From positions 1,789,687 through 1,853,686 of the forward strand of contig NZ_DS022276.1 in NCBI RefSeq assembly GCF_000153725.1: a stretch of 64,000 bases of DNA. Direction: 5' to 3'. This document shows, piece after piece, positions 8,537 to 29,254 of this stretch. The notes under the pieces were generated by a model. It searched no databases. It saw only the letters and a program-made list of their open reading frames with translations, and was not told where the DNA came from. Every line of letters starts with the position of its first letter. Position 1 is the first letter of the stretch. Made by a program: the position numbers and the translations under genes. Source of the stretch: Salipiger bermudensis HTCC2601. Lineage in GTDB: Bacteria > Pseudomonadota > Alphaproteobacteria > Rhodobacterales > Rhodobacteraceae.

Positions 8537-8564
8537 ATATATTCAATAGATAGAATTTGTGAAG
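8537..8564 (-). promoter_or_regulatory. SulP promoter with SqrR-type operator ATTC-N8-GAAT
   Basis: ATTC at 8542-8545 and GAAT at 8554-8557 are separated by exactly eight bases. On the minus strand a -35-like TTCACA (8564-8559) and a -10-like TATATC (8542-8537) are 16 bases apart, so the operator fills the spacer. ATTC-N8-GAAT is the consensus reported for the sulfide-responsive ArsR-type repressor SqrR of Rhodobacter capsulatus. Promoter elements are read by eye; binding is inferred. Confidence 0.65.
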
Positions 8565-8666
8565 AGGGGAAATGGAATAACCGGGTCACGGTTCCTCGAT
8601 AGGAGGGAAATCGGCCCCGGATCAAGTCCGGAGCCGGAAAGCTGTTCTTTGGGCGTCCGGCGCGGC

Positions 8667-10340
8667 TCAGCCAGCGGTGACCTTCTCGGGCCGCGCCATC
8701 CATTCCTTGCCGCGCAGCATCGCCTTCCAGTAGACCGGCGGCAGGATCTGTTCCTTGAGGAGCCACGCGGCGCGGGTCGGCTTGGTGCCATCGAGCAGCC
8801 ATTTGGGGAAGCTCGGCAGCAGCGCGCCGCCATAGCCGAACTCGGCGAGCACGATCTTGCCGCGCTCGACGGTGAGCGGGCACGAGCCGTAGCCGTTGTA
8901 GACCGCGTGAGGCGACAGCCCGTCGATATCGGCAGCGACGTTCTCGGCCACGATCGGGGCCTGCATCCGCGCGGCGGCGGCGGTCTTGGCGTTGGGTGCG
9001 TTCATCACGTCGCCAAGGCTCCAGACATTGTCGTAGCTCTTGTGGCGCAGGGTGTTCTGGTCGACATCGACCCAGCCGGCGGCATCGGCCAGCGGCGAGA
9101 CGCGGATGAAGTCCGGCGCGGTCTGCGGCGGGCAGACATGCATCATGTCGAACGCGACATCGATGGTGAACGGCTCGCTGTCGGGCGTGTTGACCGCGAA
9201 TGTGGCTGTCTTCGCGGGGCCATCCACGGCGATCAGGTTGTGGAAGAAGTTCAGCGAAGCGTCGTATCGCTTCACGTAATCCATCAGCGCGGGAACGTAA
9301 TCCTTCACCCCGAAGAGCACGCCGCCGGCATTCATGAACTGGATGTCGATGCGCGGCAGGATGCCGGTGCGGTACCAGTGATCGCCCGAGAGATACATCG
9401 CCTTCTGCGGCGCGCCGGCGCATTTGATCGGCATCGGCGGCTGGGTGAACAGCGCCGTGCCGCCCTTCAGCCCCTTCACCAACTCCCAGGTATAGGGCGC
9501 AAGATCGTAGCGGTAGTTGGAGGTGACGCCGTTCTTGCCCAGCGTCTCGACCAGCCCTTCGACCTTGGCCCAGTCGAGCTTGAGGCCCGGGCACACGATC
9601 AGGCGCTGGTACTTCACCACCCGGCAGCCATCGAGGATCACCGCGTTGTTTTGCGGCTCGAAGGCGGCGACGGCGGACTTGATCCAGTGCACCCCCTTGG
9701 GGATCAGGCTGCCCATGGTGCGGGCGGTGGTCTCGGGCTCGAAGATGCCGCCGCCGACCATGGTCCAGCCGGGTTGGTAGTAGTGCACGTCGGCCGGGTC
9801 GAGCAGGGCGATCTCGAGATCGGGCTTGCGCGCCTTGAGGCTGGCCGAGACGGCAATGCCCGCGGCGCCACCGCCGACCACCACCACGTCGAAACTGGCG
9901 TCGCCGGTGTCGGTCGGGGTCTTGCCGCCGTTGACGATGCGCCGCACCACGCCAGCCATGTCGTAGCCGGCCTGCTTGGTGGCCATCAGGATGCGTGCCG
10001 GCGCCATCTGACCGGCCTGGCTCAGCGACCACAGCGTTGCCGAGCGTGTGCCTGTGCGGCAATAGGCAAAGACCGGGCCGGGCAGCTCGCGCAGGGCACG
10101 GCCAAAGGCCTCGGCGTCGGTGTCCTGAACCTTGCCCGAGATCACCGGCAGGTAGCGTGTCTCGAGGCCCGCCGCCTTGGCTGCCGCCTCGATCTCTTCA
10201 AAGCCCGGCTGATCGGCACCTTCGCCGTCGGGGCGGTTGCAGATGATCGAGCGGTAGCCGGCCGCCGCGATCTCGGACAGGTCCGACGCCGCGATCTGAG
10301 GCGAAACCGTGAGGTCGTCGTTGATTTTGCGGAATTCCAA
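8667..10340 (-). CDS. Fusion of DUF442 (Blh-type sulfurtransferase/phosphatase) and sulfide:quinone reductase
   Basis: A 557-residue two-domain protein. Residues 1-110 are a DUF442 domain with a phosphatase-like loop and nucleophile Cys94 in YCRTGTRS, as in Blh/persulfide-processing proteins. From about residue 150 comes a FAD-dependent sulfide:quinone reductase with the Rossmann motif VVVGGGAAG and cysteines in LIVCPG (Cys250), PIKCAGAPQK (Cys307) and HVCPPQ (Cys403). PIKCAGAPQK is typical of the SQOR-like group. The protein would oxidise sulfide, pass electrons to quinone at the membrane and pass or release sulfane sulfur. It has its own SqrR-type operator (10387-10402). Such fusions are known in proteobacteria; which cysteines carry persulfide here is not proven. 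Confidence 0.88.
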   Translation of the reverse strand: MEFRKINDDLTVSPQIAASDLSEIAAAGYRSIICNRPDGEGADQPGFEEIEAAAKAAGLETRYLPVISGKVQDTDAEAFGRALRELPGPVFAYCRTGTRSATLWSLSQAGQMAPARILMATKQAGYDMAGVVRRIVNGGKTPTDTGDASFDVVVVGGGAAGIAVSASLKARKPDLEIALLDPADVHYYQPGWTMVGGGIFEPETTARTMGSLIPKGVHWIKSAVAAFEPQNNAVILDGCRVVKYQRLIVCPGLKLDWAKVEGLVETLGKNGVTSNYRYDLAPYTWELVKGLKGGTALFTQPPMPIKCAGAPQKAMYLSGDHWYRTGILPRIDIQFMNAGGVLFGVKDYVPALMDYVKRYDASLNFFHNLIAVDGPAKTATFAVNTPDSEPFTIDVAFDMMHVCPPQTAPDFIRVSPLADAAGWVDVDQNTLRHKSYDNVWSLGDVMNAPNAKTAAAARMQAPIVAENVAADIDGLSPHAVYNGYGSCPLTVERGKIVLAEFGYGGALLPSFPKWLLDGTKPTRAAWLLKEQILPPVYWKAMLRGKEWMARPEKVTAG

Positions 10341-10386
10341 GGCGCGTCTCCTCCAGCACGGGAATCAGGGCAGTGGGGTCTTTTAC

Positions 10387-10419
10387 ATTCATTGTTGTGA
10401 ATTTGTAATGCGTTGTCAC
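10387..10419 (-). promoter_or_regulatory. Promoter of the DUF442-SQR gene with SqrR-type operator
   Basis: ATTC at 10387-10390 and GAAT at 10399-10402 have exactly eight bases between them. On the minus strand GTGACA (10419-10414) and AACAAT (10396-10391) could act as -35 and -10 with a 17-base spacer, so the operator covers the -10. The target gene encodes sulfide oxidation, which fits SqrR control. Confidence 0.65.
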
Positions 10420-10492
10420 GTCGCATGGCTTCCCGTGCCGGGGAAGGCGCCGTCCAGGCGGCTGAATAGGCGCGCGTGCGGCCCCTGAAACG

Positions 10493-10520
10493 AAAAACGC
10501 CGCCCCGAGGGGCGGCGTTT
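10493..10520 (-). terminator. Rho-independent terminator after rpmE
   Basis: AAACGCCGCCCC and GGGGCGGCGTTT (10495-10520) form a 12-base-pair stem with a run of T on the minus strand (complement of 10493-10497). It lies 22 bases after the rpmE stop and closes the long ffh-to-rpmE transcript. Confidence 0.85.
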
Positions 10521-10542
10521 CGCGATACCGAAAGGCGTGGGC

Positions 10543-10764
10543 TCAGAAGCCGAGGCCTTCGTATTTCTTCTTGAACTTCGACACGCGGCCGCCGGTGTCC
10601 ATGAGGCGCGAGGTGCCGCCGTTCCATGCCGGGTGCACGGTCGGGTCGACGTCGAGCGACAGGGTGTCGCCTTCTTTGCCCCAGGTGGTGCGGGTCTGGT
10701 AGATGGTGCCGTCGGTCATCTTGACGTCGATGACGTGGTACTCGGGGTGGATGCCCTTTTTCAT
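10543..10764 (-). CDS. rpmE: Ribosomal protein L31, zinc-independent form
   Basis: A 73-residue protein of the large ribosomal subunit that bridges to the small subunit. It begins [10 protein letters not shown], the L31 signature, but contains no cysteine, so it is the C-minus form that does not bind zinc. That is normal in Rhodobacterales. It follows rplS by 11 bases and is the last gene of the operon. Confidence 0.96.
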
Positions 10765-10775
10765 GACGTCGCTCC

Positions 10776-11159
10776 TTATGCGCCGGCGCCGGCGAGCGGC
10801 TTGTAGTTGGTGTCTTCCGCGATACGGGCGGATTTGCCGCGACGCGAGCGGAGGTAGTAGAGCTTGGCGCGACGGACACGGCCGCGGCGCACGACGGTGA
10901 TCGACTCGATGTTGGTCGAGTACAGCGGGAACACACGCTCCACGCCTTCACCGAAGGAAATCTTGCGAACGGTGAACGAACCCGCGATGCCCGAGCCGTT
11001 CTTGCGGCTGATGCAGACGCCTTCGTAGTTCTGCACACGGGTACGGGTGCCTTCGGTCACCTTGTAGCCGACGCGCACGGTGTCGCCGGGCTTGAAGTCG
11101 GGGATATCTTTCCCCAGGGCGGCAATCTGTTCCGCCTCGAGCTGTGCGATCAGATCCAT
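10776..11159 (-). CDS. rplS: Ribosomal protein L19
   Basis: A 127-residue protein of the large subunit at the subunit interface. [35 protein letters not shown] and [10 protein letters not shown] are L19 landmarks. The C-terminus is slightly longer than in E. coli, as in other alphaproteobacteria. It lies 230 bases after trmD and 11 bases before rpmE. Confidence 0.97.
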
Positions 11160-11389
11160 CTGACCTTCTCCTTATTCTTCACGGTTTTCCCGCGGGTGAT
11201 GTCCTGAGCAGAGCTGTGCAGGCACAGATGCGTCGGCTGTTCTTTGTTTTGTGGCGGCGCTCTGCGGCAGGTCTGCCGACAGCTCGGTCACCAATATCCA
11301 ACGGCCCCGAGTCGCCCCGAAGCCGTGAATGCGCCCTGTTAAGCCGCCTTGGCCCGCAAATCAAGGGGTTTCAGTGGGGGCGGGCCGGC

Positions 11390-12205
11390 TCAGCGCTTGC
11401 CTTTCGGGGCCTCGGCGAGCGCCCGTTCATGCGCCTCCCAGAGGTCAGGGCGCCGGGCCCGGGTGATCTCTTCCGATTGCTGGCGGCGCCATTTCTCGAT
11501 CTCGCCGTGATGGCCCGAAAGCAGCACCGGCGGGATCTCGTGGCCCTGCCACTCGGCGGGGCGGGTATACTGCGGATGCTCGAGCAGCCCGTGCGAGAAG
11601 CTCTCCTCCTCGATCGAGTCTGCATTGCCGAGTACGCCGGGCAGCAGGCGCACGGTGGCGTCGAGCATCGCCTGCGCGGCCAGCTCCCCGCCGGTGAGCA
11701 CGTAGTCTCCGAGCGAGACCTCCATGACGCCGTAATGGTCGAGCACCCGCTGGTCGAGCCCCTCGAACCGGCCGCAGATCAGCGTCACGCCCGGCGCCTG
11801 CGCCAGCCGGCGCGCCATCGGCTGGTCGAAGCGGCGTCCCCGCGGGGACAGGTAGATGATCGGCGCGGCGCCCGAGATCTTGCGGCGCGCGGTCTCGAGG
11901 GCCCGGCCCATCACGTCGGGGCGCAGCACCATGCCGGCACCGCCGCCGGCTGGGGTGTCGTCGACATTGCGGTGCTTGCCCTCGCCGAAATCGCGCAGGT
12001 TCACCGGGTCGAGCTGCCAGATCCCGTCCTGCAGCGCCTTGCCGGTCAGCGACAGGCCGAGCACGCCCGGAAAGGCCTCGGGGAAGAGGGTGATGACCTG
12101 TGCGGTCCAGGCGCGGGCGAGCGCCGGGCGGTCGGTCATCAGCTCACGCGGCTTGAGGCTCGGGCGGATGGTCTTGCGACCATGGGATTTGGGTGTCTCG
12201 CTCAT
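11390..12205 (-). CDS. trmD: tRNA (guanine-N1-)-methyltransferase TrmD
   Basis: A 271-residue SPOUT methyltransferase that makes m1G37 in tRNAs and so prevents frameshifting. The knot region has PAGGGAGMVLRPDV, IYLSPRGRRFDQ and SLGDYVLTGGELAA; WQGHEIPPVLLSGHH is in the C-terminal part. The frame is open upstream, but the ATG at 12205 gives MSETPKSHGRKTI, the usual Rhodobacterales start. The 230 bases between trmD and rplS hold no clear gene. The gene upstream is an unrelated membrane protein rather than rimM, which is a departure from the usual order. Confidence 0.95.
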   Translation of the reverse strand: MSETPKSHGRKTIRPSLKPRELMTDRPALARAWTAQVITLFPEAFPGVLGLSLTGKALQDGIWQLDPVNLRDFGEGKHRNVDDTPAGGGAGMVLRPDVMGRALETARRKISGAAPIIYLSPRGRRFDQPMARRLAQAPGVTLICGRFEGLDQRVLDHYGVMEVSLGDYVLTGGELAAQAMLDATVRLLPGVLGNADSIEEESFSHGLLEHPQYTRPAEWQGHEIPPVLLSGHHGEIEKWRRQQSEEITRARRPDLWEAHERALAEAPKGKR

Positions 12206-12236
12206 GCGCCCCCTGTAGCCGCACCGGCGGGACGGC

Positions 12237-13397
12237 TCAAGCGGCCTGCTGTGGCGCAATCTCGATATAGTGCTCGAGGCGCGGCGGTGCGATCATCCGG
12301 CCGGCGCGAAGGTCCCAGTTGTCGCGGGGGCGCGGGGCCTCTCCGTGGGACGTGGCGAAGATATCGGTCGGGTCGGGCCAGCGCGGCTGCCCGGTCTGCT
12401 CTGCAAGCGTGTCAAGCTGGGACGAGAGCGCCGATGCCGCCCGGCTCGCTTCATCCGCATCCTTCGGCACAAATCCAAGCGCCTGCCCGGTGTAGCGCCC
12501 GGCATTCCAGCCCCGGATCACGCTGCACAGCCCGCCGAGCCACTCGGTCTCCCCGTTGCGCAGGGCGATCGGGATGCGGCCCGCCTCGGCGATGCGGCTG
12601 AGATAGAGCGCGACGCTGGCGCGCTCGCATCCCGGTTGTCGCGCACACCAGAGCGCGGCGCGGGCCTGCTCGGGGTCGGCGAGGTCATGTTCGGCAATCA
12701 CCTTGTGCCATAGGTCGGGGTCGGGGGCAGTCAGTGCGCGCAGCGCGTCGACAAGCGTGTCTCCTTTGCCCGGGGCGGTCTGCTTCCAGGCCATCCTCGT
12801 GGCGCGGAAGGCGGCCCTCTGACGTTCGAAACGCTGGCGGCGTGCGTCGATCTCGAGCACCCGGTCGCGGATCGCGAGAACCACGTCGGGCTTGCGAAAG
12901 CGCTGCGCCAGCTCGCCTGCACGGCAAGGGTCGGCGGCGATCAGCTCGCGCAATTGCCACAGGGCCTGGAGTTGCCTGTCATCCAGCTGTTCGACGGTCT
13001 CTGCCCGCCAGGTGTGCAGGATGCGCCCGAACACCCGGCTACGAACCGCCGCGCGGGTTTCGGGCTCATGCAGTGCCGTGGGATCCCGCCGCCCGTCGGC
13101 TGCCCGAAGGAGGACGCCGAGCTCCTTGCGCATCGTGGCAGGGGCCGGGAGGTCGCGCGGCAGGTGCCGATACGCCCGGGCCGTCAGAAGGCTGGGCGCT
13201 GCCGCCGCTGCCCCGCGCCTATCGAGGCGCGGCAGCTTTGCTGCGGACAGGCCAAGTGCCGTCACCACACCGATGCTAGAGAGGATCGTGACCTGCATCA
13301 TCACCGGCAGATCGGCCCGCTGATGCAGGATCAGAAATAGCAGCGCCGACGTTGTCGCGACGCCATACCAAAGCACACGTTGAATCGCCGGGACCAT
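12237..13397 (-). CDS. Membrane-anchored protein of unknown function in the trmD operon
   Basis: I do not recognise this protein (about 386 residues). Two hydrophobic segments lie at the N-terminus (about residues 5-25 and 32-52), followed by a mostly soluble, Arg- and Ala-rich helical region to the end. No catalytic motif is visible. The frame can be extended to a TTG at 13430, but the ATG at 13397 is preceded by AAGGGGG and is preferred. It sits between the sulfotransferase-like gene and trmD, 31 bases before the latter, so it probably rides on the ribosomal transcript. An AT-rich stretch just upstream (about 13420-13512) contrasts with its surroundings and may hold a separate promoter. Confidence 0.6.
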   Translation of the reverse strand: MVPAIQRVLWYGVATTSALLFLILHQRADLPVMMQVTILSSIGVVTALGLSAAKLPRLDRRGAAAAAPSLLTARAYRHLPRDLPAPATMRKELGVLLRAADGRRDPTALHEPETRAAVRSRVFGRILHTWRAETVEQLDDRQLQALWQLRELIAADPCRAGELAQRFRKPDVVLAIRDRVLEIDARRQRFERQRAAFRATRMAWKQTAPGKGDTLVDALRALTAPDPDLWHKVIAEHDLADPEQARAALWCARQPGCERASVALYLSRIAEAGRIPIALRNGETEWLGGLCSVIRGWNAGRYTGQALGFVPKDADEASRAASALSSQLDTLAEQTGQPRWPDPTDIFATSHGEAPRPRDNWDLRAGRMIAPPRLEHYIEIAPQQAA

Positions 13398-13512
13398 GAG
13401 CGCCCCCTTTTTGTCAAAATCCAGTCTCAAATTGATTTTGATTATGGCGAATTATTGCTGTTACGGGGAAGTTTTCTTGATCTGTTTACCAATTCGTAAC
13501 GATTGGGGGCTC

Positions 13513-14310
13513 TTAACTCTGTTTGTTTGCGATTCGACGCAGATTTTTCTTCGCGTCGCGCAGGTTTTCCTCGCTGAGCGCGCTGCGGTTGAGCGCCAAG
13601 AAGACCTCGTCGAGCCCGGAAACCGGCTGGGCATTCACCGGCGGGAGAATCGCCAGAGCGTCTCGAATCTCAGGAACTAGGGCGAAAAGATCGAGCAGAG
13701 GCGCAAGCGGCCCCTCCCGTCGGTCTCGGCTGAGATCGAGCGATTCAGACATCACACGTGCCGGAGCCACCGCTTTGGCCACGGCCTCGACGGTCCCGTT
13801 CAGATCCGTGGCCACCTCCGGTCGGGTGGCGTAGAGGTCGAGATCATCGGTCAGCCGTGTGCTGCGCAGGTTCTGCCACCATGTCGAGCGCAGCCAAGTA
13901 TCGCTGTCCCGGGTCGAGAAGAAAAATATGAGATCGAGATTGTCTCCGAAGCGGTGGCGTGCGTTCTCGGCAATCACCGACATGATCCGCGGCGCCGCGT
14001 GATAACCGGGACGGCGGCGGCGGCCGGGCAGATGACCCGACAGATCCTCGGAGGACATCAGAATCGGGCGCGGGTCGTCGCGCTCGATCCGGCGAAAGAA
14101 ACGCATGGCGTAGCGCCCCACGGCGTTCAGCGCGGCGTCGTCTTCCGGGGCGGCGCAAAACGCCCGCGTGGCCTCGGTCAGGGCGTCGAAATCCGCCTTG
14201 AGATAGACGCGCAGATGCGGCTCGAGCAGCGCCCGGTTGGCACGGAGTGTGCTTTGGACGCTGGTGGTCCCTGTCTTGTGAAATCCTGCGTGAATGACCA
14301 CGCGGGTCAT
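13513..14310 (-). CDS. Sulfotransferase-like protein
   Basis: A 265-residue protein that opens with [16 protein letters not shown] (residues 4-19). This matches the PAPS 5'-phosphosulfate loop of sulfotransferases (GxxKTGTT). A later [15 protein letters not shown] segment corresponds to the second (3'-phosphate) PAPS region. The acceptor is unknown. Its ATG overlaps the stop of rimM by four bases (ATGA), so translation is coupled to rimM, an unusual partner. It may modify a cell-surface glycan or a small molecule; this is speculation. Confidence 0.7.
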
Positions 14311-14828: not shown

Positions 14829-14888
14829 GCCCGGTTTACCGCGCTACTGGATAGACCAGAGCCACGGCGCTTGGCAATCGACGCCGGC

Positions 14889-15731: not shown

Positions 15732-15804
15732 CGGGCGGCTCCTGTCTGGGGCAATGCGATTCGTAGTCTAGCGCCTTTGAATTTGTTTCCTACTGTTGGG
15801 GAAC

Positions 15805-15836
15805 AAAAAAAGCGCAGCGGGCCGAACCCGCTGCGC
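15805..15836 (-). terminator. Terminator or attenuator after rpsP
   Basis: GCGCAGCGGG (15812-15821) pairs with CCCGCTGCGC (15827-15836) over a five-base loop, with seven T on the minus strand right after (complement of 15805-15811). It would end or attenuate the ffh-rpsP transcript before the MipA-like gene and rimM. Confidence 0.85.
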
Positions 15837-15860
15837 CTGTGTTGCCGAAAGGCAGACGAA

Positions 15861-16235: not shown

Positions 16236-16285
16236 TTCAGTTTCTCCTTATCGAATGGCGTTGGGTCGTGCCGGTTGAGCCGGCC

Positions 16286-16591
16286 TTACGATTGGTGTTG
16301 TTCGTGGTGCTTGATGACTTCCTGAATGACGAAATTCAGGAACTTCTTGGCGAAGTCGGGGTCGAGGTCGGCCTTCTCCGCCAGATCCTGCAGCCGCGCG
16401 ATCTGCTTTTCCTCTCGCGCGGGGTCGGAAGGGGGCAGGTCGTGATGCGCCTTGAGGACGCCCACGGCCTGGGTGTGCTTGAACCGCTCGGCCAGCGTGA
16501 AGACGAGGATCGCATCCAGCCGGTCGATGCTTTCGCGGTGTTCCTTGAGCAGCGCCGCGGCGCGTGCCACCGGATCATGGGTCTCAGTCAA
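16286..16591 (-). CDS. Chorismate mutase, AroQ class
   Basis: A 101-residue all-helical enzyme that converts chorismate to prephenate for Phe and Tyr synthesis. ESIDRLDAILVFTLAERF is the first AroQ helix, with Arg and Asp as in the family; HTQAVGVLKAHHDLPPSDPAREEKQI and KFLNFVIQEVIKHH follow. No ATG fits. The TTG at 16591 gives MTETHDPVARAA, has AAAGGCTGGG upstream and overlaps the end of the GNAT gene by eight bases, so it is chosen as the start. A chorismate mutase between ffh and rpsP is typical of Rhodobacterales. Confidence 0.88.
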   Translation of the reverse strand: MTETHDPVARAAALLKEHRESIDRLDAILVFTLAERFKHTQAVGVLKAHHDLPPSDPAREEKQIARLQDLAEKADLDPDFAKKFLNFVIQEVIKHHEQHQS

Positions 16592-17189
16592 TGGCCCAGC
16601 CTTTCGGTTTGAACAGGGGATCCTGGAAATTCGCGATTTCCATGTCGATGCCGTGGGCGAGCTGCGTGCCGCGCAGCGCCGCCGGGGCGGGATGGCGATA
16701 GACCGCGTCGGAGCCGTCGATCGAAGGGGCCTCGGCGTCCTTCGTTGCGCCGAGCCGTTCCGCGAGGCGGATCGAGTCGAGGTTCTTCGGGTCGATATAG
16801 CTGACCGCGGTGTCCCAGCCCTTCTCGTCGTAGAAGTGCCTGCGCACGCGATGGGTGGCCTCGAGCGCAAAGCCCTTGCCGCCCTTGTCGGGCCAGATGA
16901 TCCAGGCGATCTCGCGCTCGGGCCATTTCGCCGGGCACCAGCCGCCGGCCATGCCGACGGTCTCGCCGGTGTCGCGCAGGTGGACCATCCACATGCCGAA
17001 ACCGCGGATCTCCCAGTGGCCGATCTCGGCGGCGTAGAGCATCCATGCCTCGTACGCGTTGAGCGGCCCGCCCATGAAGCGCGAGCGATACGAGGCGAAG
17101 GTGGCCTTGAAATCCGGGTAGTCCTGCGGTTCGGGCGCGCGCAGCACCAGGCGGGCAGTCTCGAGCATGGGAATGTCGTAATGCGCCAT
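16584..17189 (-). CDS. GNAT acetyltransferase, fourth of four in tandem
   Basis: A 201-residue acetyl-CoA-dependent N-acetyltransferase of the RimJ/RimL-like group. It opens with LETARLVLRAPEPQDY and has EIAWIIWPDKGGKGFALEATHRV, the acetyl-CoA loop region (about residues 95-117). It carries a C-terminal tail of about 25 residues not present in the other three copies. The ATG at 17189 overlaps the stop of the preceding copy by one base (TGATG). The acceptor is unknown. Confidence 0.85.
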   Translation of the reverse strand: MAHYDIPMLETARLVLRAPEPQDYPDFKATFASYRSRFMGGPLNAYEAWMLYAAEIGHWEIRGFGMWMVHLRDTGETVGMAGGWCPAKWPEREIAWIIWPDKGGKGFALEATHRVRRHFYDEKGWDTAVSYIDPKNLDSIRLAERLGATKDAEAPSIDGSDAVYRHPAPAALRGTQLAHGIDMEIANFQDPLFKPKGWAID

Positions 17190-17707
17190 CACACGCCCTC
17201 CCGCTGCTCGGGGTGTCGGTAGACGTGGCAAGTCTGACCGAAGAGCGTGTCTTCGCCCTCGTAATGCGCGCCAAGCCGCAGCGCCAGCGCCCGCGACCGG
17301 TCGTTGGTCGGGTCGATCATGCTGATCAGCCGGGTCAGGCCGAAATGGCGGGCGGCGGCAGAGCGCGCCGCCTCGACAGCCTCGTGGGCATAGCCCTTGC
17401 CCTCGTAGGCGGCGAAGATGCCATACGCCAGTTCCGGCTCGGGCCATTCGATATGGTGCAGCACGCCGGCATGGCCGATCATCTCGCCGCTGTCGCGCAC
17501 GGTGATGTGCCAAAGGCCATAGCCACGCAGCTGCCATTGCCCGGCGCTGCGCAGGAGCATGCGCCAGACCTCGCCGCGCTCGGACGGGCCCCCGACATAT
17601 TTCGAGCGCTCGTCGGCGAAGAAGCCGCAGAGCGGGTCGAGATCCTCGAAGCGCGGGGCACGCAGCACGAGGCGGTCGGTTTCGATCACGGGCACCTCGA
17701 CGCTCAT
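17189..17707 (-). CDS. GNAT acetyltransferase, third of four in tandem
   Basis: A 172-residue paralogue: IETDRLVLRAPRFEDLDPL at the start, then ELAYGIFAAYEGKGYAHEAVEAA for acetyl-CoA binding and MIDPTNDRSRALALRLGA near the end. Its ATG overlaps the previous gene by four bases. Compared with the neighbours it has SKYVGGPSERGEVW in place of the ARFMGGPLP-type segment, so the copies have diverged in the acceptor region. Confidence 0.85.
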   Translation of the reverse strand: MSVEVPVIETDRLVLRAPRFEDLDPLCGFFADERSKYVGGPSERGEVWRMLLRSAGQWQLRGYGLWHITVRDSGEMIGHAGVLHHIEWPEPELAYGIFAAYEGKGYAHEAVEAARSAAARHFGLTRLISMIDPTNDRSRALALRLGAHYEGEDTLFGQTCHVYRHPEQREGV

Positions 17708-18234
17708 CCCAGAACCTCCTCGGGTCCGGGATGGCGATAGAGCATGTCTTCGCCCATGCTGTAATTCATGTAGGTGCGCTCGTACGTGGCACCCATGCGC
17801 TCGGCCAGCGCCACCGAACGGGTGTTGCCCGGCACGATGTTCGAGGTCAGCGTGGTCAGCCCGAGATCCTCGTAGGCGTAGCGACGCACGCGCTCGGCGG
17901 CCTCGCGGGCGATGCCGCGGCCCTCGAAACCCTCGAAGACCACCCAGCCGATTTCCGGCTCGGGCCAACCCTCGGGATTCCAGATGCCGGAGATGCCGGC
18001 GGGCTGGCCGGTCTCTTTCATCTCGATGGTGAAGTAGCCGTAGCCGCGCAGCTGCCAGTGGCCGATATTGAGCGCGAACCAGCGCCAAGCGTCGCCGCGA
18101 TGGTCGTAGCCGCCGAAGCCATCGGCGCGTTCGCGGTCGAGCAGGAAGGCGATCATCGGCTCGGCATCGGTTGCTTCCGGGCCGCGCAGGATCAGGCGCT
18201 CGGTCTCGAGGCGGGGGGCGTTGGGCACGATCAT
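17704..18234 (-). CDS. GNAT acetyltransferase, second of four in tandem
   Basis: A 176-residue paralogue: LETERLILRGPEATDAEPM at the start, then EIGWVVFEGFEGRGIAREAAERV for acetyl-CoA binding and NIVPGNTRSVALAERMGA. It has ADGFGGYDHRGDAW where the first and fourth copies have RFMGGPL. Start and stop each overlap the neighbouring gene by four bases (ATGA), which implies coupled translation. Confidence 0.85.
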   Translation of the reverse strand: MIVPNAPRLETERLILRGPEATDAEPMIAFLLDRERADGFGGYDHRGDAWRWFALNIGHWQLRGYGYFTIEMKETGQPAGISGIWNPEGWPEPEIGWVVFEGFEGRGIAREAAERVRRYAYEDLGLTTLTSNIVPGNTRSVALAERMGATYERTYMNYSMGEDMLYRHPGPEEVLG

Positions 18235-18764
18235 GCGTAGGCCTCCGGGCTGCCATCCGCATCGGCGCGGTGACGGTAGACCACGGTCTCCGCCGGGGTC
18301 TCGCCCGCGGGCAGCGGCGCGTCCTCGTCATGCTTGGCGCCAAGCCGCTCGGCCAGCGCGATGGAACGGTCGTTGCCGGGGGTGATGTAAGAGACCAGCG
18401 ACTCGAAGCCGTTTTCCCACGCCCAGTGCAACGCCGCCTGCGCCGCCTCGGCGGCATAGCCCTTGCCTTCGGCGCCCTCGAGCAGGGTCCAGCCGATCTC
18501 GGCCTCGGGGAAATGCGGCGGCTGCGACAGGCCGACCTGCCCGACGAAGCTGCCGTCCCTGGTTTCGATGCCCCAGTAGCCGAAGCCCCGCAGGTCCCAC
18601 ATGCCCACCTCGGACGCAATCCAGCGCCACGCTTCCTTGCGCGGAAGCGGGCCACCCATGAAGCGCGCGCGGTCGGTCTCGAACAGGTCGCAAAGCGCCT
18701 CGAGATCGGCCAGAACGTGGCCTCGCAGGGTCAGCCGGGGGGTATGGAGGACGGGGGCGGGCAC
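18231..18764 (-). CDS. GNAT acetyltransferase, first of four in tandem
   Basis: A 177-residue paralogue: LHTPRLTLRGHVLADLEAL at the start, ARFMGGPLPRKEAWRW, then EIGWTLLEGAEGKGYAAEAAQAA for acetyl-CoA binding and YITPGNDRSIALAERLGA. It starts four bases after the ffh stop. The four copies are close paralogues by motif order and length and probably arose by tandem duplication. Confidence 0.85.
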   Translation of the reverse strand: MPAPVLHTPRLTLRGHVLADLEALCDLFETDRARFMGGPLPRKEAWRWIASEVGMWDLRGFGYWGIETRDGSFVGQVGLSQPPHFPEAEIGWTLLEGAEGKGYAAEAAQAALHWAWENGFESLVSYITPGNDRSIALAERLGAKHDEDAPLPAGETPAETVVYRHRADADGSPEAYA

Positions 18765-18768
18765 GGGC

Positions 18769-22979: not shown

Positions 22980-22982
22980 CGG

Positions 22983-23336
22983 TCAGACCCGGTCCTGGTC
23001 CTGGATCGCAGGCCCGGTTCCGAGCTCCTCGGCGAGGAAACGCTCGAAGGCGTCGAGATTGACCGGCTCGACAAGCCCGAACCCCACCATCCAGACCGAG
23101 GCCTCGCGCAGCGCATCCGGCTCGAGCTTGCACCATTTCACGCGGCCACGCTTTTCCTGGCTGATCAGTCCGGCCGCAGCGAGGATGGCGAGGTGCTTGG
23201 AGACCGCCGCAAGCGACATCTCGAAGGGGTCTGCCACGTCGGTCACCGCCATGTCGTCCTCGAGCAGCATCGCGAGGATGCGGCGGCGGGTCGGGTCTGC
23301 GAGGGCGGCAAAAACGGCGGAGAGCGTGTCGGTCAT
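22983..23336 (-). CDS. ArsR-type winged-helix regulator
   Basis: A 117-residue repressor. ALADPTRRRILAMLLEDDMAVTDVADPFEMSLAAVSKHLAIL in outline (about residues 11-52) is the ArsR winged helix. The recognised metal-site cysteines and the paired redox cysteines of SqrR/BigR are absent; one Cys stands in VKWCKLEP. It is of the SdpR/autorepressor-like kind. It faces the EamA gene tail to tail with a three-base gap. Its target is unknown. Confidence 0.85.
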   Translation of the reverse strand: MTDTLSAVFAALADPTRRRILAMLLEDDMAVTDVADPFEMSLAAVSKHLAILAAAGLISQEKRGRVKWCKLEPDALREASVWMVGFGLVEPVNLDAFERFLAEELGTGPAIQDQDRV

Positions 23337-23528
23337 GTCGCCATAAGCCGTGCCGCCGATGGCATCGTCAAGCCGGTCTCGGCCATGCTCAACCGCGCAG
23401 TTGAATAAGGAATGGCGCCTCCGTTGGCGCTAACCTGGCGCCGGGGGCTTTGATGTGAGAGAGGGTGTGAATTTAAAAACATTAGATATCAGAGCCTTAA
23501 GGTGTCTTGATCGTCTGTTCACCGGTTC

Positions 23529-23557
23529 TTGACTCGGGGCGCTCCGCCGCATAGCAA
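23529..23557 (+). promoter_or_regulatory. Likely promoter of the ATP synthase F0 operon
   Basis: TTGACT (23529-23534) and TAGCAA (23552-23557) are 17 bases apart and 28 bases before the GTG of atpI. The -35 matches the CTTGAC type favoured in alphaproteobacteria; the -10 is weak. Confidence 0.5.
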
Positions 23558-23585
23558 CATCGCGAAACTCCTTTTGGACTGAACA

Positions 23586-23933
23586 GTGAGCGACCCCGAT
23601 CCGAAGCAGCAACTCGATGCGCTGGAGGCGAAGATCGCGGCGGCCAAGGCCGCCCGGGAAAGCGACAAGGTCCATCAGGAGGAACATTATTCCCAGGCAC
23701 AGCTCGCCTGGCGGATGGTCACGGAGATGGTTGCCGGTCTCGGGATCGGTTTTGGCATCGGATACGGGCTTGATGTGCTGTTTGGCACCACCCCGTTCCT
23801 CATGGTGCTGTTCACATTGCTGGGGGTCGTGGCGGGTATCCGGGTGATGCTGCGCAGCGCCGCCGAAATCCAGCAGGCGCAACTGGCCAAGCAGGCCGGA
23901 GAAGACGAGAAGAGGGATCGCAATGGCGACTGA
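23586..23933 (+). CDS. atpI: ATP synthase-associated protein AtpI/AtpZ
   Basis: A 115-residue inner-membrane protein with a charged N-terminal helix and two hydrophobic hairpin segments ([20 protein letters not shown] and [19 protein letters not shown] in outline). AtpI helps c-ring assembly or Mg/Ca transport in several bacteria. It starts at GTG and its end overlaps atpB by 11 bases. The operon order atpI-B-E-F'-F is that of alphaproteobacteria, in which the F1 genes are elsewhere; none is in this window. Confidence 0.85.
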
Positions 23934-24717
23934 AGCAACGCACGGTGCTGAGATGGCCGGACACGGCGCAGAGAACGCCGCCGAAACGGGTGGTCTCGTC
24001 TTCCACCCGATGGACCAGTTCATCGTCAAGCCGCTGTTCGGCGACGGTGCGGTTGGCATGTTCACCATCACCAACGTCACCCTGTGGATGCTGATCGCGA
24101 TCCTCGTGATCGTCGCGCTGATGGTGTTCGGCACCTCGCGCCGCGCTGTCGTTCCCTCGCGCAGCCAGTCGGTGGCCGAGCTTGCCTACGGCTTCATTCA
24201 CAAGATGGTCGAGGACGTGGCCGGCAAGGACGGGCTCGTCTACTTCCCCTACATCATGACGCTGTTCATGTTCATCGTGATCGCCAACTTCCTCGGCCTG
24301 ATCCCGATGAGCTTCACCACCACCTCGCACTTCGCGGTGACCGTGGTTCTGGCGCTCTGCGTGTTCCTCGGCGTGACCATCCTCGGCTTCGTCAAGAACG
24401 GTGCCTCCTTCCTGAGCCTGTTCTGGGTGTCGTCGGCGCCGATGGCGCTGCGCCCGGTCCTGGCGATCATCGAGATCATCTCGTACTTCGTGCGCCCGGT
24501 CAGCCACTCCATTCGTCTTGCCGGCAACGTCATGGCGGGCCACGCGGTTCTCAAGGTGTTCGCAGGCTTCGCTGCCGTCGCCGCGATCTCGCCGCTGACC
24601 ATCGTCGCGATCACCGCGATCTACGGTCTCGAGGTTCTGGTGGCCTTCATTCAGGCCTACGTCTTCACGATCCTCACCTGCGTCTACCTCAAGGACGCAC
24701 TGCATCCGCACCATTGA
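23923..24717 (+). CDS. atpB: ATP synthase F0 subunit a
   Basis: A 264-residue membrane protein that forms the proton half-channels next to the c-ring. The essential arginine is in [15 protein letters not shown] (about residue 196), followed by the final helices ending in [28 protein letters not shown] in outline. Length and order fit the alphaproteobacterial type. It overlaps atpI. Confidence 0.97.
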
Positions 24718-24724
24718 CGTAGCG

Positions 24725-24742
24725 GCGGGGCCCGCGCCCCGC
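24725..24742 (+). other. Intercistronic hairpin before atpE
   Basis: GCGGGG and CCCCGC (24725-24730 and 24737-24742) form a GC-only stem shortly after the atpB stop. No T-run follows. It may help to process or stabilise the atpE message. Confidence 0.4.
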
Positions 24743-24796
24743 TCTACCCCGCAGAACACCCCTATCGATCACTTCCACACGTAAGGAGATACCACC

Positions 24797-25021
24797 ATGG
24801 AAGGTCAACTCGCACACATCGGCGCAGGTCTCGCAGGTCTCGGCACCGGTCTCGCCGCACTTGGTGTGGGCAACGTCGCCGCGAACTTCCTCGCCGGCGC
24901 GCTGCGCAACCCCTCGGCTGCTGCTTCGCAGACCGCGACCCTGTTCATCGGCATCGCATTCGCCGAAGCACTGGGCATCTTCTCCTTCCTCGTTGCTCTG
25001 CTGCTGATGTTCGCCGTCTAA
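24797..25021 (+). CDS. atpE: ATP synthase F0 subunit c
   Basis: A 74-residue hairpin of two hydrophobic helices; many copies form the proton-driven ring. The polar loop is LRNPSAA, and the proton-carrying glutamate is in [11 protein letters not shown] (about residue 59). AAGGAG precedes the ATG at good distance. It is flanked by hairpins on both sides (24725-24742 and 25047-25076), consistent with its need for higher expression than neighbouring genes. Confidence 0.97.
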
Positions 25022-25046
25022 TCGACGGAACGAAAATCCTTACGCG

Positions 25047-25076
25047 CGGGCGGTCCCGTCCCTGACGGGCCGCCCG
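25047..25076 (+). other. Strong intercistronic hairpin after atpE
   Basis: CGGGCGG (25047-25053) pairs with CCGCCCG (25070-25076), and the inner CCCGTC (25055-25060) pairs with GACGGG (25064-25069); one T is bulged. There is no T-run. A stem like this at the 3' end of atpE could protect the upstream message from exonucleases or lower read-through into the b subunits. Confidence 0.55.
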
Positions 25077-25107
25077 ATGTAGAGACAACGTTCCGACGGA
25101 GGACGAC

Positions 25108-25659
25108 ATGGCGACAGAACCCATCGCCGGAGAATTCGCGAGCGCCTGCGTGGACAGCCATGGCTCTGCCATCGGCATGCCCCAGCTGTGCGCTGAGTGG
25201 ATCCCGAACCAGGTCTTCTGGCTTGTCATCACGCTTGTGGTGATTTTCTTCGTGCTGTCGCGCATCGCTCTGCCGCGGATCGCATCCGTCCTGGCCGAGC
25301 GCCAGGGCACGATCACGAATGACATCGCCGCCGCAGAGGAGCTGAAGCGCCAATCCGCCGACGCCGAAGCGGCGTACGACAAGGCGCTCGCGGATGCCCG
25401 TGCCGAGGCCCAGGCCATCGGTCAGCAGACCCGCGACGAGATCAAGGCGCAACTCGACGAGGCGACCCGCGAAGCGGACGCCCAGATCGCGGAAAAGACC
25501 GCCGAGTCGGAAGCGGCCATCGCCGAAATCCGTGCCTCGGCCCTCGCGAATGTCGAGATCGTCGCAAAGGACACCGCGGCAGCCATCGTGGCAGCCCTTG
25601 GTGGCAAGGCGGATCAGGCAGCCATCTCTTCGGCTGTCGACAACCGGATGAAAGGGTGA
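25108..25659 (+). CDS. ATP synthase F0 subunit b'
   Basis: A 183-residue stalk subunit with one membrane segment ([19 protein letters not shown], about residues 37-55) followed by a long charged helix rich in Ala, Glu and Lys. It pairs with subunit b in the peripheral stalk of alphaproteobacterial and chloroplast-type enzymes. About 36 residues come before the membrane helix. It is four bases from atpF. The gene is also named atpF2 or atpG in related genomes. Confidence 0.93.
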
Positions 25660-25663
25660 GCCG

Positions 25664-26227
25664 ATGCGTAAGCTGATCATCACCAGCGCCCTTGGCGCAA
25701 GCCTTGCCAGCCCCGCGCTGGCGGCGTCCGGCCCGTTCTTCTCGCTGCGCAACACCGACTTCGTGGTGCTGCTCGGTTTCCTGCTCTTCCTTGCTGTCCT
25801 GGCCTACTTCAAGGTCCCGGGCATGCTGGGAAAGCTGCTGGACAAGCGCGCCGACGACATCCGCAACGAGCTCGACGAAGCGCGCGCGCTGCGTGAAGAG
25901 GCCCAGACGCTTCTTGCCTCCTACGAGCGCCAGCAGCATGAGGTCTCTGCACAGGCGGACCGCATCGTTGCAAACGCCAAGGAAGAGGCCGAGATCGCCG
26001 CCGAACAGGCCCGCAAGGACCTCAAGGATGCCATCGCACGCCGTCTCGCTGCCGCCGACGACCACATCGCTTCGGCTCAGGCATCGGCCGTGAAGGAAGT
26101 GCGCGACCGTGCCGCAATCGTGGCCGTGGCGGCTGCCCGCGATGTCATCGCGCAGCAGACCAGCGCTGCAGACAAGGACCGGATGATCGACGAGTCGATC
26201 GCCGAAGTCGGTGCCAAGCTGCACTGA
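25664..26227 (+). CDS. atpF: ATP synthase F0 subunit b
   Basis: A 187-residue peripheral-stalk subunit. The N-terminus looks like a signal sequence ([14 protein letters not shown]), then a membrane segment [20 protein letters not shown] (about 28-47) and a long amphipathic helix ([19 protein letters not shown] onward). The signal-like N-terminus is common in Rhodobacteraceae AtpF. It ends the F0 operon, with a terminator 26 bases later. Confidence 0.94.
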
Positions 26228-26253
26228 CCCGCAAGGTCCCCGAGAATTCCAAG

Positions 26254-26280
26254 AAGCCCGGCCACTGGTCGGGCTTTTTT
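26254..26280 (+). terminator. Terminator of the ATP synthase F0 operon
   Basis: AAGCCCGGCC (26254-26263) pairs with GGTCGGGCTT (26267-26276) with one G-T pair and an ACT loop, and a run of T follows. Confidence 0.85.
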
Positions 26281-26434
26281 CTGTCCCGCGGTCGGATTTG
26301 CGGCACGTGGAACACGGTCGGGGCTTGCCTTGCCGTTGCGCCATCGGCAAGACTTTGCTTGTTGGCTCCCACCAGATACGGTAGCTCGACCAGGTCCACA
26401 GCGGTACATGTGGTCATCAGGACAAGAGGGTAGC

Positions 26435-27244
26435 GTGGCACATATCATCGTCGTCGGGAACGAGAAGGGCGGGGCGGGCAAATCCACCGTCTCGATGCAT
26501 GTGGCCACCGCGCTTGCCCGGCTGGGCTACAGGGTCGGGGCGCTCGACCTCGACCTGCGTCAGCAGACCACCGGCCGCTACTGCGACAACCGCCGCCGCT
26601 TCCTCGAGAGCGAGGGGCTCGAGCTGCCCAGCCCGCATTACATGGAGCTGCCGCAGGTCGATCCCTCCGAGCTGGCGCCCGGCGAGAACGCCTATGATCA
26701 TCGGCTGAGCAAGGCGGTCTCGATGCTCGAGGCTGACAGCGATTTCATCCTGATCGACTGCCCCGGCTCGCACACCCGCCTGAGCCAGGTGGCGCACACG
26801 CTCGCCGACACGCTGATCACCCCGCTCAACGACAGCTTCATCGATTTTGACCTGCTGGCCCGCATCGACGGCGACGGCGAGAAGATCCTCGGCCCGTCGG
26901 TCTATTCCGAGATGGTCTGGAATGCCCGGCAGCTGCGCGCACAGGCCGGGCTCAAGCCGATCGACTGGATCGTGCTGCGCAACCGCCTCGGCGCCCAGCA
27001 GATGATCAACAAGATGAAGATGGAGAAAGCGCTCGAGCGTCTTTCCAAGCGCATCGGTTTCCGCATCGCGCCGGGGTTCTCCGAGCGGGTGATCTTCCGC
27101 GAACTGTTCCCGCGTGGCCTGACGCTGCTCGATCTCAAGGATATCGGCGTCAAGCAGCTGAATATTTCGAACGTGGCGGCGCGTCAGGAACTGCGCGACC
27201 TGATGAGCACGCTCGATCTGCCCGAGGTCGAGATCCGCTTCTGA
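26435..27244 (+). CDS. mipZ: Division-plane positioning ATPase MipZ-like
   Basis: A 269-residue ParA/MinD-type ATPase. The deviant Walker A is NEKGGAGKST (about residues 9-18), the switch region is LDLDLRQQTTGRY and Walker B is FILIDCPGSH. MipZ of Caulobacter has the same VVGNEKGGAGKST and DLDLRQ signatures; it forms a pole-to-midcell gradient with ParB and blocks FtsZ assembly away from midcell. GTG at 26435 with AAGAGGG upstream is the start; an ATG at 26330 would add 35 residues unlike the family. It lies next to the ATP synthase genes behind a terminator, so it should have its own promoter. Confidence 0.8.
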   Translation: MAHIIVVGNEKGGAGKSTVSMHVATALARLGYRVGALDLDLRQQTTGRYCDNRRRFLESEGLELPSPHYMELPQVDPSELAPGENAYDHRLSKAVSMLEADSDFILIDCPGSHTRLSQVAHTLADTLITPLNDSFIDFDLLARIDGDGEKILGPSVYSEMVWNARQLRAQAGLKPIDWIVLRNRLGAQQMINKMKMEKALERLSKRIGFRIAPGFSERVIFRELFPRGLTLLDLKDIGVKQLNISNVAARQELRDLMSTLDLPEVEIRF

Positions 27245-27251
27245 GGCGGCG

Positions 27252-27809
27252 CTAGCGCAGCCGCCAGGCCAGCGCCGCAACGCCGATGCCGGAGGTCAGC
27301 AGCTCGATACCGAGAAAGATCCCGAGGATGCCGCCACCGGCTTCCGGGATGGCGAAGATGATCCAGAGGCCGAGGGCCACGGAGATCGCCCCGGCCAACG
27401 CCAGCCAGCCCCAGCCGCGCCGCTCGCGCAGGTGAAAGGCGAGCAGGACGCGCAGCAGCCCGACGGCGATGAAGAACCCGGCGATGATCAGCGTGAGCGA
27501 GACGATTCCGGCGAGGGGGTTGGCCAGCAGCGCGACGCCGAAGGCGAGCACAATGAAGCCCAGCAGCCCCGAGACAAGCCGCGCAGAGCCGGGCCCGTCA
27601 TCCTGAAACGCGATCCACAGCTGAAGGACTCCACCAAGTAAGAGGATGCTGCCCGCGATGGCCACTGCGGTCAGCGATGCGGCAAAGGGGTTCAGGAAGG
27701 CGACGATCCCGCCGACGATGAGCAGCGCGCCGAGGACCAGCAGCCAGCGCCAGTCGGGCCCGAGCGGGCGGCGGGGTCGGGTCTCGCGTTGGGGCATGGG
27801 ATCGGACAT
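27252..27809 (-). CDS. HdeD-family membrane protein (DUF308)
   Basis: A 185-residue protein with six hydrophobic segments. The repeated pattern LLVLGALLIVGGIVAFLNP and GVALLANPLAGIVSLTLIIAGFFIAVG, each with an Asn-Pro, is that of DUF308/HdeD proteins, linked to acid resistance in E. coli. Here the function is open. The ATG at 27809 has AGGAG just upstream; the longer frame to 27878 is not needed. It lies seven bases from the end of the convergent mipZ gene. Confidence 0.8.
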   Translation of the reverse strand: MSDPMPQRETRPRRPLGPDWRWLLVLGALLIVGGIVAFLNPFAASLTAVAIAGSILLLGGVLQLWIAFQDDGPGSARLVSGLLGFIVLAFGVALLANPLAGIVSLTLIIAGFFIAVGLLRVLLAFHLRERRGWGWLALAGAISVALGLWIIFAIPEAGGGILGIFLGIELLTSGIGVAALAWRLR

Positions 27810-27922
27810 GGGGCACTCCTCTGGGCTGCAGGGAGAACCACGCTGGAGCGTCCCCGTTCCATCACCATGCCGCGACACGGGATTTCGCGAAAGGCAGGAC
27901 TCGGGGTTTCTCGTGTGTCACG

Positions 27923-27958
27923 ACAGGGGGCCGAAGGTGTGCCTTCGGCCCTTCCTGT
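27923..27958 (-). terminator. Hairpin after the TsoY-like gene, possible terminator
   Basis: GGGCCGAAGG (27928-27937) pairs with CCTTCGGCCC (27942-27951), with further ACAGG/CCTGT pairing outside. It lies 24 bases after the stop of the TsoY-like gene. No T-run is seen on either strand, so termination is uncertain. Confidence 0.45.
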
Positions 27959-27981
27959 TGTGGCCTCGGTGACTGGCCAGG

Positions 27982-29193
27982 TCACTCCGCCGCCACTGCG
28001 ATCTCCTCGCGGCGCCCGAAGTGCTGGCGGTTGAGCCGCAGCACCAGCCAGACGGCGAGCGCCTGCGCGATCAGCGCCACGGCGGTCAGCGCCCAGAAGG
28101 CGAGGCTGAACTTGTCGACCATGCCGGCGGCCACCAGCCCCTTGTTGATGAAGAACTGCAGCATCACTGACAGCGCCACCGCAGGGCAGACCAGCGCGTA
28201 GGAGCCGGGCGAGGTCTTGGGACCGAGCACGAAGTCGCGGAAATAGCCCTGGGCTCGCAGCACCGTCATCCCCAGCAGCAGGAACACCACCTGCACCGAG
28301 AGCATTCGGGCCAGGAAGACCAGCGTCTCGCCGGCATTGCCATGTGCGTCGAAGGTGGTGTGCAGCCCGTGCGCCTGGCGCAGGAACATGATGCCGAGCA
28401 CGGTCATGATCGGCACGATGATCAGCAGGGTCGGGCCGGCCTCGCGCGCGGTGCCGTAATGCAGCATCGAGCTCAGAGCGGTGATCGCGGCCATCACGGT
28501 GTAGATCATCGCGGTCACGCCGAGGAAGGTCGACAGCACCAGTGCGGTGCCGACGGTCACAGGGTTGCCGCTCATGGCGGCGGGGGCGGCGAAGCCCACG
28601 GCGACCATGGCGATGGCAAAGGCGGGCAGCAGCTGGGCAAAGGAGTTATGCGCGGTGACATCGAAGATGCCCCCCTTCGACAGCACCCGGCCGAGAAAGC
28701 CGCCAAGCTGTCGGAAGGCCAGCACGCCGATCAGCGCGAAGGCCACCATGGCGAAGGGGAAGAGATACTCGACCACGGACCACAGGCCGGGCACGAAGAC
28801 CAGCCCGAGGATGAAGCCCACATTCACCGTCATGGCAAGCGCCAGCGGCATCGCGAGCACCGAGCTCTCGGTGTTGGACTGCTTCATCTCTTGCCATGCG
28901 GCGGTCTGTTTGAAGGCGCTGAAGCTGCGCAGGTTCCAGATCAGCGACTTGATGTTGAGCACCGCGAAGACGGCGATTCCCAGCATCGCGACCACGATCG
29001 CCACCTGTTGCGGCAGCAGCCCCCCGGCCCAGGCGGCGGCGATGTCCTCGAAGATCGGGACGGCCTGCCCGGGGTGGGGCACCCAGAACATCAGGTACAT
29101 GAAGAACGAGACCGCCGTACCGCCCGCGCCCAGCGACGCGAGGAAATAGGTCGGCGAGTAGGTGTCTGCGGGGCGTGCAAGCGTGCGTGCCAT
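27982..29193 (-). CDS. TsoY-like multi-pass membrane protein, function unknown
   Basis: A 403-residue inner-membrane protein with about ten hydrophobic segments. The N-terminal stretch SPTYFLASLGAGGTAVSFFMYLMFWVPHP resembles, from memory, proteins annotated as TsoY, with a layout like the tellurite-resistance/dicarboxylate (TDT) superfamily. I cannot verify this by search. Only one cysteine is present, in YALVCPAVAL (about residue 345). The frame extends to 29235, but the ATG at 29193 has GGGAGG six bases upstream, and the region above it is filled by two operators and a promoter. Those operators match SqrR sites, so a role in handling sulfide, sulfane sulfur or an export product is inferred, not shown. 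Confidence 0.65.
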   Translation of the reverse strand: MARTLARPADTYSPTYFLASLGAGGTAVSFFMYLMFWVPHPGQAVPIFEDIAAAWAGGLLPQQVAIVVAMLGIAVFAVLNIKSLIWNLRSFSAFKQTAAWQEMKQSNTESSVLAMPLALAMTVNVGFILGLVFVPGLWSVVEYLFPFAMVAFALIGVLAFRQLGGFLGRVLSKGGIFDVTAHNSFAQLLPAFAIAMVAVGFAAPAAMSGNPVTVGTALVLSTFLGVTAMIYTVMAAITALSSMLHYGTAREAGPTLLIIVPIMTVLGIMFLRQAHGLHTTFDAHGNAGETLVFLARMLSVQVVFLLLGMTVLRAQGYFRDFVLGPKTSPGSYALVCPAVALSVMLQFFINKGLVAAGMVDKFSLAFWALTAVALIAQALAVWLVLRLNRQHFGRREEIAVAAE

Positions 29194-29208
29194 GACGGCC
29201 TCCCATAA

Positions 29209-29254
29209 ATTCGCTGTACGGAATGTATTATACATTCATAAATGGGAATGTTAA
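29209..29254 (-). promoter_or_regulatory. Promoter of the TsoY-like gene with two tandem SqrR-type operators
   Basis: Two exact ATTC-N8-GAAT sites lie at 29209-29224 and 29234-29249. On the minus strand -35 TTAACA (29254-29249) and a consensus -10 TATAAT (29232-29227) are 16 bases apart; one operator fills the spacer and the other covers the expected transcription start. GAATGTAT (29221-29228) and ATACATTC (29230-29237) make a perfect palindrome over the -10. This is the arrangement expected for tight repression. The leader from the -10 to the ATG is about 34 bases. Confidence 0.7.

Follow-up and report, generated by a model that had tools for sequence, protein, structure and literature searches.

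Conserved candidate SqrR-type operators at the promoters of a SulP permease, a DUF442-SQR fusion and the membrane protein TsoY in Salipiger bermudensis

Among the closest described systems is SqrR of Rhodobacter capsulatus, whose deduced binding site is quoted as ATTC-N8-GAAT (PMC9774250) and which has been reported to control sqr, coding for the sulfide:quinone reductase (SQR), and a rhodanese gene (PMC9995734). Rhodobacteraceae convert methanethiol derived from dimethylsulfoniopropionate to sulfane sulfur (PMC10936201), and the exit route of the oxidised sulfur from such cells is a natural follow-on question. Here we analyze a stretch of 64,000 nucleotides (64 kb, the window) of the genome of Salipiger bermudensis HTCC2601, a member of this family, in which four exact copies of the SqrR word are found at the promoters of three genes. 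They code for a SulP permease, a fusion of DUF442 (a sulfur transferase domain) with SQR, and TsoY, a membrane protein family that we have found only in NCBIfam models and in one list of selenoproteins. In our view these four copies very probably serve as operators for ArsR-type repressors of the SqrR/SoxR/BigR group that respond to sulfane sulfur. This would tie TsoY to a sulfane-sulfur regulon belonging to a large group of mostly marine bacteria.

ATTC-N8-GAAT is its own reverse complement, so that searching one strand covers both. The four exact matches in the window (Table 1) are those indicated by a first-pass annotation, except that the first one starts at 8541 and not at 8542. That annotation had estimated that fewer than one match would be expected by chance, and dinucleotide shuffles of the window agree (mean 0.41, largest 2, with 0/100 shuffles reaching 4). 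It had also described a 16-base spacer filled by the operator at two of the promoters, and we find precisely this arrangement for sulP (TTCACA-N16-TATATC) and tsoY (TTAACA-N16-TATAAT). Its equation of the word with the SqrR consensus and its identification of the SulP permease and of the DUF442-SQR fusion were likewise borne out. The TTG start of the fusion gene corresponds to the codon at which its relatives begin with Met. As for the name TsoY, the window protein reaches 520.2 bits with the family model NF047644 (cut-off 150). With the model of the selenoprotein TsoY, NF047643, it obtains 56 bits and fails the cut-off of 250, and its frame is open with no inner stop. The listed frame reaching 29235 is over-extended.

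Table 1. Genes, putative operators and proposed promoter elements in the window (positions counted from its first letter).
Feature	Position	Strand	Basis
SulP permease gene with STAS domain	6700..8472	-	TIGR00815, 452 bits
Proposed sulP promoter: -35 TTCACA 8558-8563, -10 TATATC 8536-8541	8536..8563	-	Sequence reading and consensus of 20 promoters
Putative sulP operator, ATTCTATCTATTGAAT on the minus strand, within the promoter spacer	8541..8556	-	Exact match; kept in 20/30 best SulP loci
DUF442 (sulfur transferase)-SQR fusion gene, TTG start	8667..10340	-	TIGR01244 domain and pyridine nucleotide-disulphide oxidoreductase domain
Putative DUF442-SQR operator	10387..10402	-	Exact match; 12/30 best loci have one within 150 nucleotides
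TsoY family membrane protein gene, 403 amino acids, start after GGGAGG	27982..29193	-	NF047644; predicted structure
Putative proximal tsoY operator, adjacent to the -10 on its downstream side	29209..29224	-	Exact match
Proposed tsoY -10 TATAAT, between both operators	29227..29232	-	Sequence reading
Putative distal tsoY operator, within the promoter spacer; -35 TTAACA at 29249-29254	29234..29249	-	Exact match

The evidence that carries this interpretation comes from the orthologous promoters. TsoY was searched in 295 genomes of the family and is present in 83. For SQR, SulP and rhodanese the searches matched 119, 203 and 153 of the 295 genomes, and the best-scoring 30 loci of each were used. 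The exact word lies within 150 nucleotides (nt) of the first conserved TsoY residue in 53 of the 83 genomes, where shuffled sequences gave 0.44, and a control region between -400 and -250 contains it in 0/83. Within the same distance it was found in 20 of the 30 SulP loci (shuffles 0.12) and in 12 of the 30 DUF442-SQR loci (0.10). An exact site also stands directly ahead of a rhodanese gene in the S. bermudensis genome, and 20 of the 30 rhodanese loci have one within 200 nt (0.23). When all the 2304 palindromes formed by every four-base word with spacers of 4-12 were compared, ATTC-N8-GAAT ranked first in each of the four promoter sets; the runner-up palindromes reached 20/83 for TsoY and 5/30, 5/30 and 10/30 for the other sets, some of them overlapping the same site. 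A set of 80 named TsoY loci, whose sources include Salipiger, Shimia, Phaeobacter and Celeribacter, overlaps partly with the 83 genomes (L287 and L288 in it being one sequence); 72 of these loci carry the exact site within 300 nt. The nearest named TsoY is that of Salipiger bermudensis, with 96% identity. Together with the sites at sox and rhodanese genes and the presence of a SqrR-group gene in 83/83 TsoY genomes (see below), the conserved word supports a regulon of the SqrR/SoxR type.

The position of the sites within the promoters is conserved too. The 20 SulP promoters share the consensus CTTtACAAATTC-N8-GAATATATA, with the operator word occupying the -35/-10 spacer. In 31 TsoY promoters two sites are found 24-26 bases apart (start to start, one mismatch being allowed in one of them), the distal one overlapping TTTACA and the spacer, the proximal one following the -10 region, and the tsoY promoter of the window shows this paired arrangement. 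In a further 22 TsoY promoters the exact site stands alone, with no such partner. A recurrent one-base variant was seen in the distal site of L217, L222, L233, L237 and L249 (L and G numbers denote our loci and genomes), ending in GCAT instead of GAAT, which may be a weaker operator.

The first-pass annotation had reported no SqrR or BigR gene in the window, which agrees with our results as far as the PF01022 search goes, the window not having been searched gene by gene: nine matches were found in the genome and the only one inside the window (22983-23336) is an ArsR-type gene whose best matches are generic and SdpR models. Two genes of the SqrR/SoxR/BigR group are present in the genome, both outside the window. 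One, a SoxR (L017:807-1154), sits in the sox cluster and matches an ArsR-family chain of the PDB with 126 bits; the other (L065:5902-6231), located about 0.76 Mb before the window, does so with 114 bits. Both have the ArsR fold and two cysteines aligned with those of the matched chains. We take PDB chains 6o8k-6o8o and 13ct, given as ArsR family in the PDB table, to be R. capsulatus SqrR. Neither gene is a BigR equivalog, since they obtain 107.2 and 93.4 bits with NF040642 (cut-off 155), which is still the best model for each. In the topology of a tree of 71 sequences, read leaving support values aside, three groups appear: SoxR, RcSqrR (that of R. capsulatus) and a clade A that includes L065. 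Their recognition helix is nearly common to all three (RQAAVSQ[QM]L.RLR with small changes). At an E value of 1e-12, a SqrR-group gene is present in all the 83 TsoY genomes and in 249 of the 295.

Our proposal is as follows. The spacer between -35 and -10 would be covered by a bound repressor dimer, accompanied at tsoY by another dimer just after the -10, so that RNA polymerase could not engage. By analogy with published relatives, when persulfide or polysulfide rises sulfur would bridge the two cysteines of the repressor, which would then leave the DNA. We infer that the DUF442-SQR fusion, SulP and TsoY would be induced in this way along with the sox and rhodanese genes. Candidates for binding these putative operators in S. 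bermudensis are SoxR and its clade A paralogue, either alone or together. That just one of them reads all the sites has a probability only a little short of even. Genomes with a single detected repressor copy of any group carry the site, so one repressor can suffice: SoxR-type G142, G229, G152 and G217 and RcSqrR-type G219, G024, G037 and G040 have it at TsoY, and clade A genomes at TsoY (G076, G098, G220) or SulP (G088), although G098 and G220 are only 84% and 75% complete. As the TsoY site is carried by single-copy genomes of each group, the three groups probably read one word, which suggests that three repressor subfamilies share one operator. With recognition helices so nearly identical, overlapping binding by both repressors is just as likely. 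Tandem pairs of TsoY sites do track clade A, being found in 28/36 genomes with it and in 3/47 lacking it (Fisher 8e-12). However, the pairs come close to being a single clade in a 30-sequence tree of TsoY, for which reason we do not take this value at face value: the link may reflect common descent.

The neighbourhoods of tsoY in two other loci, L231 and L379, also support the regulon. In Loktanella (L231) the gene order is peroxiredoxin fragment, persulfide-dioxygenase-like gene, tsoY with an exact site at 5945 ahead of it, a small protein with no family and a SQR-like gene. In L379, from another class of the same phylum, it is peroxiredoxin, TehA/TDT, tsoY, a cytochrome of the octaheme tetrathionate reductase family, a persulfide-dioxygenase-like gene and DUF442-SQR; no exact site is found in L379, L380 or L381. 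Judging by coordinates, SQR lies within 5 kb of TsoY in 5 of the 83 genomes (G148, G017, G231, G041, G035), and SulP comes directly after the DUF442-SQR fusion gene in several relatives (G098, G053, G025, G086, G279). Two further loci place tsoY among cobalamin genes and have no exact site, one between cobN and cobO (L281:5989-7221) and the other before cobO (L260:5995-7224). As a separate observation, in L379:4728-7093 a genuine TehA/TDT gene is located directly upstream of tsoY within a sulfide-oxidation operon.

AlphaFold models of two TsoY family members (mean predicted local distance difference test 81.5 and 80.1) have ten long helices each. When they were compared with the PDB by Foldseek, chains of TehA, SLAC1 and SLAH took ranks 1-11 for one model and 1-19 for the other (probability 0.97-1.00, TM-score by target 0.46-0.65, E 0.0056-0.21, none below 0.001), so TsoY is predicted to have a ten-helix TehA/SLAC1-like fold. 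Sequence comparisons do not confirm this kinship. The SLAC1/TDT model PF03595 does not match the window protein and matches 2 of 24 relatives with E values up to 10 (best 9.7e-5), hhalign of TsoY against SLAC1/TDT gives probabilities of 0.6% and 0.3%, its controls being equally insignificant, BLASTP against the TDT neighbour in L379 gives no match, and the TsoY profile finds 0 matches among PDB sequences. In ungapped windows, transmembrane helix (TM) 1 falls on TM1 as the first match and TM7 on TM7 among the top five. When the local alignment was left free, the helices matched colinearly and C336 of TsoY fell on the column of TehA F262, with a score (84.9 vs 72.2 for the reversed profile) that is not significant and with the TM9 window alone at rank 86 of 110968; the unrelated SulP profile gives 147.3 (reversed 162.6) and the EamA profile 48.0 (reversed 57.1).

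F262 has been described as the gating residue of TehA on TM9 (PMC11050165). By this alignment, whose score is not significant, the corresponding position of TsoY is a cysteine. This cysteine is invariant in 24/24 aligned members, and likewise in 11/11 members of which three are from outside the class. A search for its motif matched 74 of the 80 named loci; five of the six others were inspected: in two the residues around the cysteine differ slightly, and three are short translations. No second cysteine is found in 71/80. The motif, CPxV, fits the UxxV listed for the selenoprotein TsoY (PMC13188914), and selenocysteine would thus occupy the same position in the latter. A SLAC1 motif is present in Ssu1, a sulfite pump of yeast (PMC6765260), and for this reason sulfite is our first guess as to what TsoY carries.

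Export of an oxidised sulfur product (sulfite or thiosulfate) by TsoY and SulP is a tentative proposal, to which we give somewhat less than an even chance. A more specific version is unlikely as a whole, namely that TsoY is a new branch of SLAC1/TehA in which the gate phenylalanine is replaced by the invariant cysteine (selenocysteine in the selenoprotein homologues), making it a sulfite or thiosulfate exporter gated by sulfane sulfur. The pore would then be opened by modification of the gate cysteine, through the same signal that lifts the repressor off the tsoY promoter. Rather than a channel or exporter, TsoY might be a membrane redox protein, or the anchor for one, with the cysteine serving for sulfur or electron transfer. 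This is a serious competitor, clearly below even in our judgement: a single invariant cysteine in CPxV, matching UxxV, suggests chemistry, and in L379 tsoY adjoins the octaheme cytochrome gene, but tsoY also adjoins the TDT transporter gene there, and the two models agree on a TehA/SLAC1-like fold. The analysis gives TsoY a testable fold, substrate class and key residue.

Several observations weigh against the proposed regulon. The genome-wide motif search that the first-pass annotation had called for gives 28 exact words in 5.48 Mb (6 contigs, 99.7% complete), where the shuffle rate of the window extrapolates to about 35, so the raw count is at chance level, an outcome that the annotation itself had named as refuting its reading. 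Allowing one mismatch there is no excess in the window either (8 found vs 11.87 expected). The 24 sites outside the window fall within predicted genes in 10 cases (one lies in soxB, within its over-extended start), have no surrounding gene call in 3 and are intergenic in 11, as decided by open frames under a simple rule on third-position GC content. Sulfur genes accompany only three of them (soxW-soxX, soxA-soxB and the rhodanese gene); the remaining flanking genes scanned include no sulfur genes by their Pfam names, so many single sites are probably due to chance. The exact site is missing at 30/83 TsoY promoters, seven of which have it with one mismatch, and at 18/30 DUF442-SQR loci within 150 nt (17/30 within 400 nt). 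The sets of 30 over-represent close relatives and their sequences are not independent. Finally, the exact word was found within 250 nt upstream of none of the 70 SqrR-group genes scanned, which led us to drop autoregulation through this word. Even so, conservation and promoter position outweigh the chance-level raw count.

It is very improbable that the conserved operator is genuine and read by a regulator outside the SqrR/SoxR group. In favour of such a regulator it can be said that binding by the SqrR-group proteins is deduced here from sequence, that their own genes do not carry the word upstream and that 166 of the 212 TsoY-less genomes have a SqrR-group gene as well, which makes the co-occurrence only moderately informative. 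On the other hand, the word is the published SqrR site (PMC9774250), the targets sqr, rhodanese and sox agree with those reported for SqrR and SoxR (PMC9995734, PMC10451225), and every TsoY genome has a gene of the group. A chance origin of the four sites in AT-rich promoter regions, to which the genome count and the lack of a one-mismatch excess would point and which raw counts alone would not reject, is rejected by the orthologous promoters, with 12-53 loci found where shuffles expect 0.1-0.44, and its probability is close to nil.

Among the other features, the first conserved residue of TsoY is W in 12 family members, 9 of which have no exact site. The 10-base spacer variant of the word occurs 11 times in the genome, and the persulfide dioxygenase genes of this genome stand at none of the 28 exact sites. 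One exact site (G000:C3:51653-51668, L002) is flanked on both sides by the 3' end of a frame, the two frames being convergent and one of them coding for a sigma-54 response regulator; this is not an obvious promoter location. Another (G000:C5:720481-720496, L006) separates two divergent frames whose products have tyrosinase and LodA-like lysine oxidase domains. At 16584-18764 of the window several short minus-strand frames resemble acetyltransferase genes arranged in tandem.

In the literature searched, lying mostly outside subscription papers, we found this operator described at neither tsoY nor sulP, and PMC13188914 was the only relevant paper for TsoY. Compared with the SqrR regulon of R. 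capsulatus, the system described here is alike in the operator word, in having SQR and a rhodanese gene as targets and in the repressor cysteines (PMC9995734, PMC9774250). Unlike it, the SQR is a DUF442 fusion instead of type I, and the two repressors fall outside the RcSqrR clade; SulP and TsoY were not found as SqrR targets in the accessible parts of the same papers. The SoxR systems of Hyphomicrobium denitrificans and Paracoccus share with it a SqrR-group repressor beside sox genes (PMC10451225, PMC12423496). In our genome exact sites are found at soxW-soxX and soxA-soxB, and the same word is present also at the SulP, DUF442-SQR, rhodanese and TsoY promoters. The main texts of those two papers contain no ATTC or GAAT string.

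Also similar is the bigR operon of Xylella and Agrobacterium, in which a SqrR-group repressor occurs with a DUF442 protein and with an exporter of sulfite. There, however, DUF442 is fused to persulfide dioxygenase and the exporter is TauE-related (PMC5823870), whereas in S. bermudensis the fusion partner of DUF442 is SQR, with SulP and TsoY as candidate exporters. In the mto clusters of Methylophaga thiooxydans sulP is likewise found beside sqrB and persulfide dioxygenase genes, although the accessible part of that paper mentions neither TsoY nor a SqrR-type site (PMC6548844). As to the protein, the predicted TsoY fold of ten long helices resembles the TehA/SLAC1 (TDT) anion channels, Ssu1 included (PMC11050165, PMC3509319, PMC6765260), but the window TsoY has no significant sequence match to them and, going by the alignment above, whose score is not significant, has Cys for Phe in TM9. 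It belongs by NF047644 to the same family as the selenoprotein TsoY of the Tso "three selenoprotein operon" (PMC13188914), from which it differs in lacking selenocysteine. The operators are thus of a known kind, and the variation is in the set of targets, in the tandem arrangement and in a possible cysteine-gated SLAC1-like protein.

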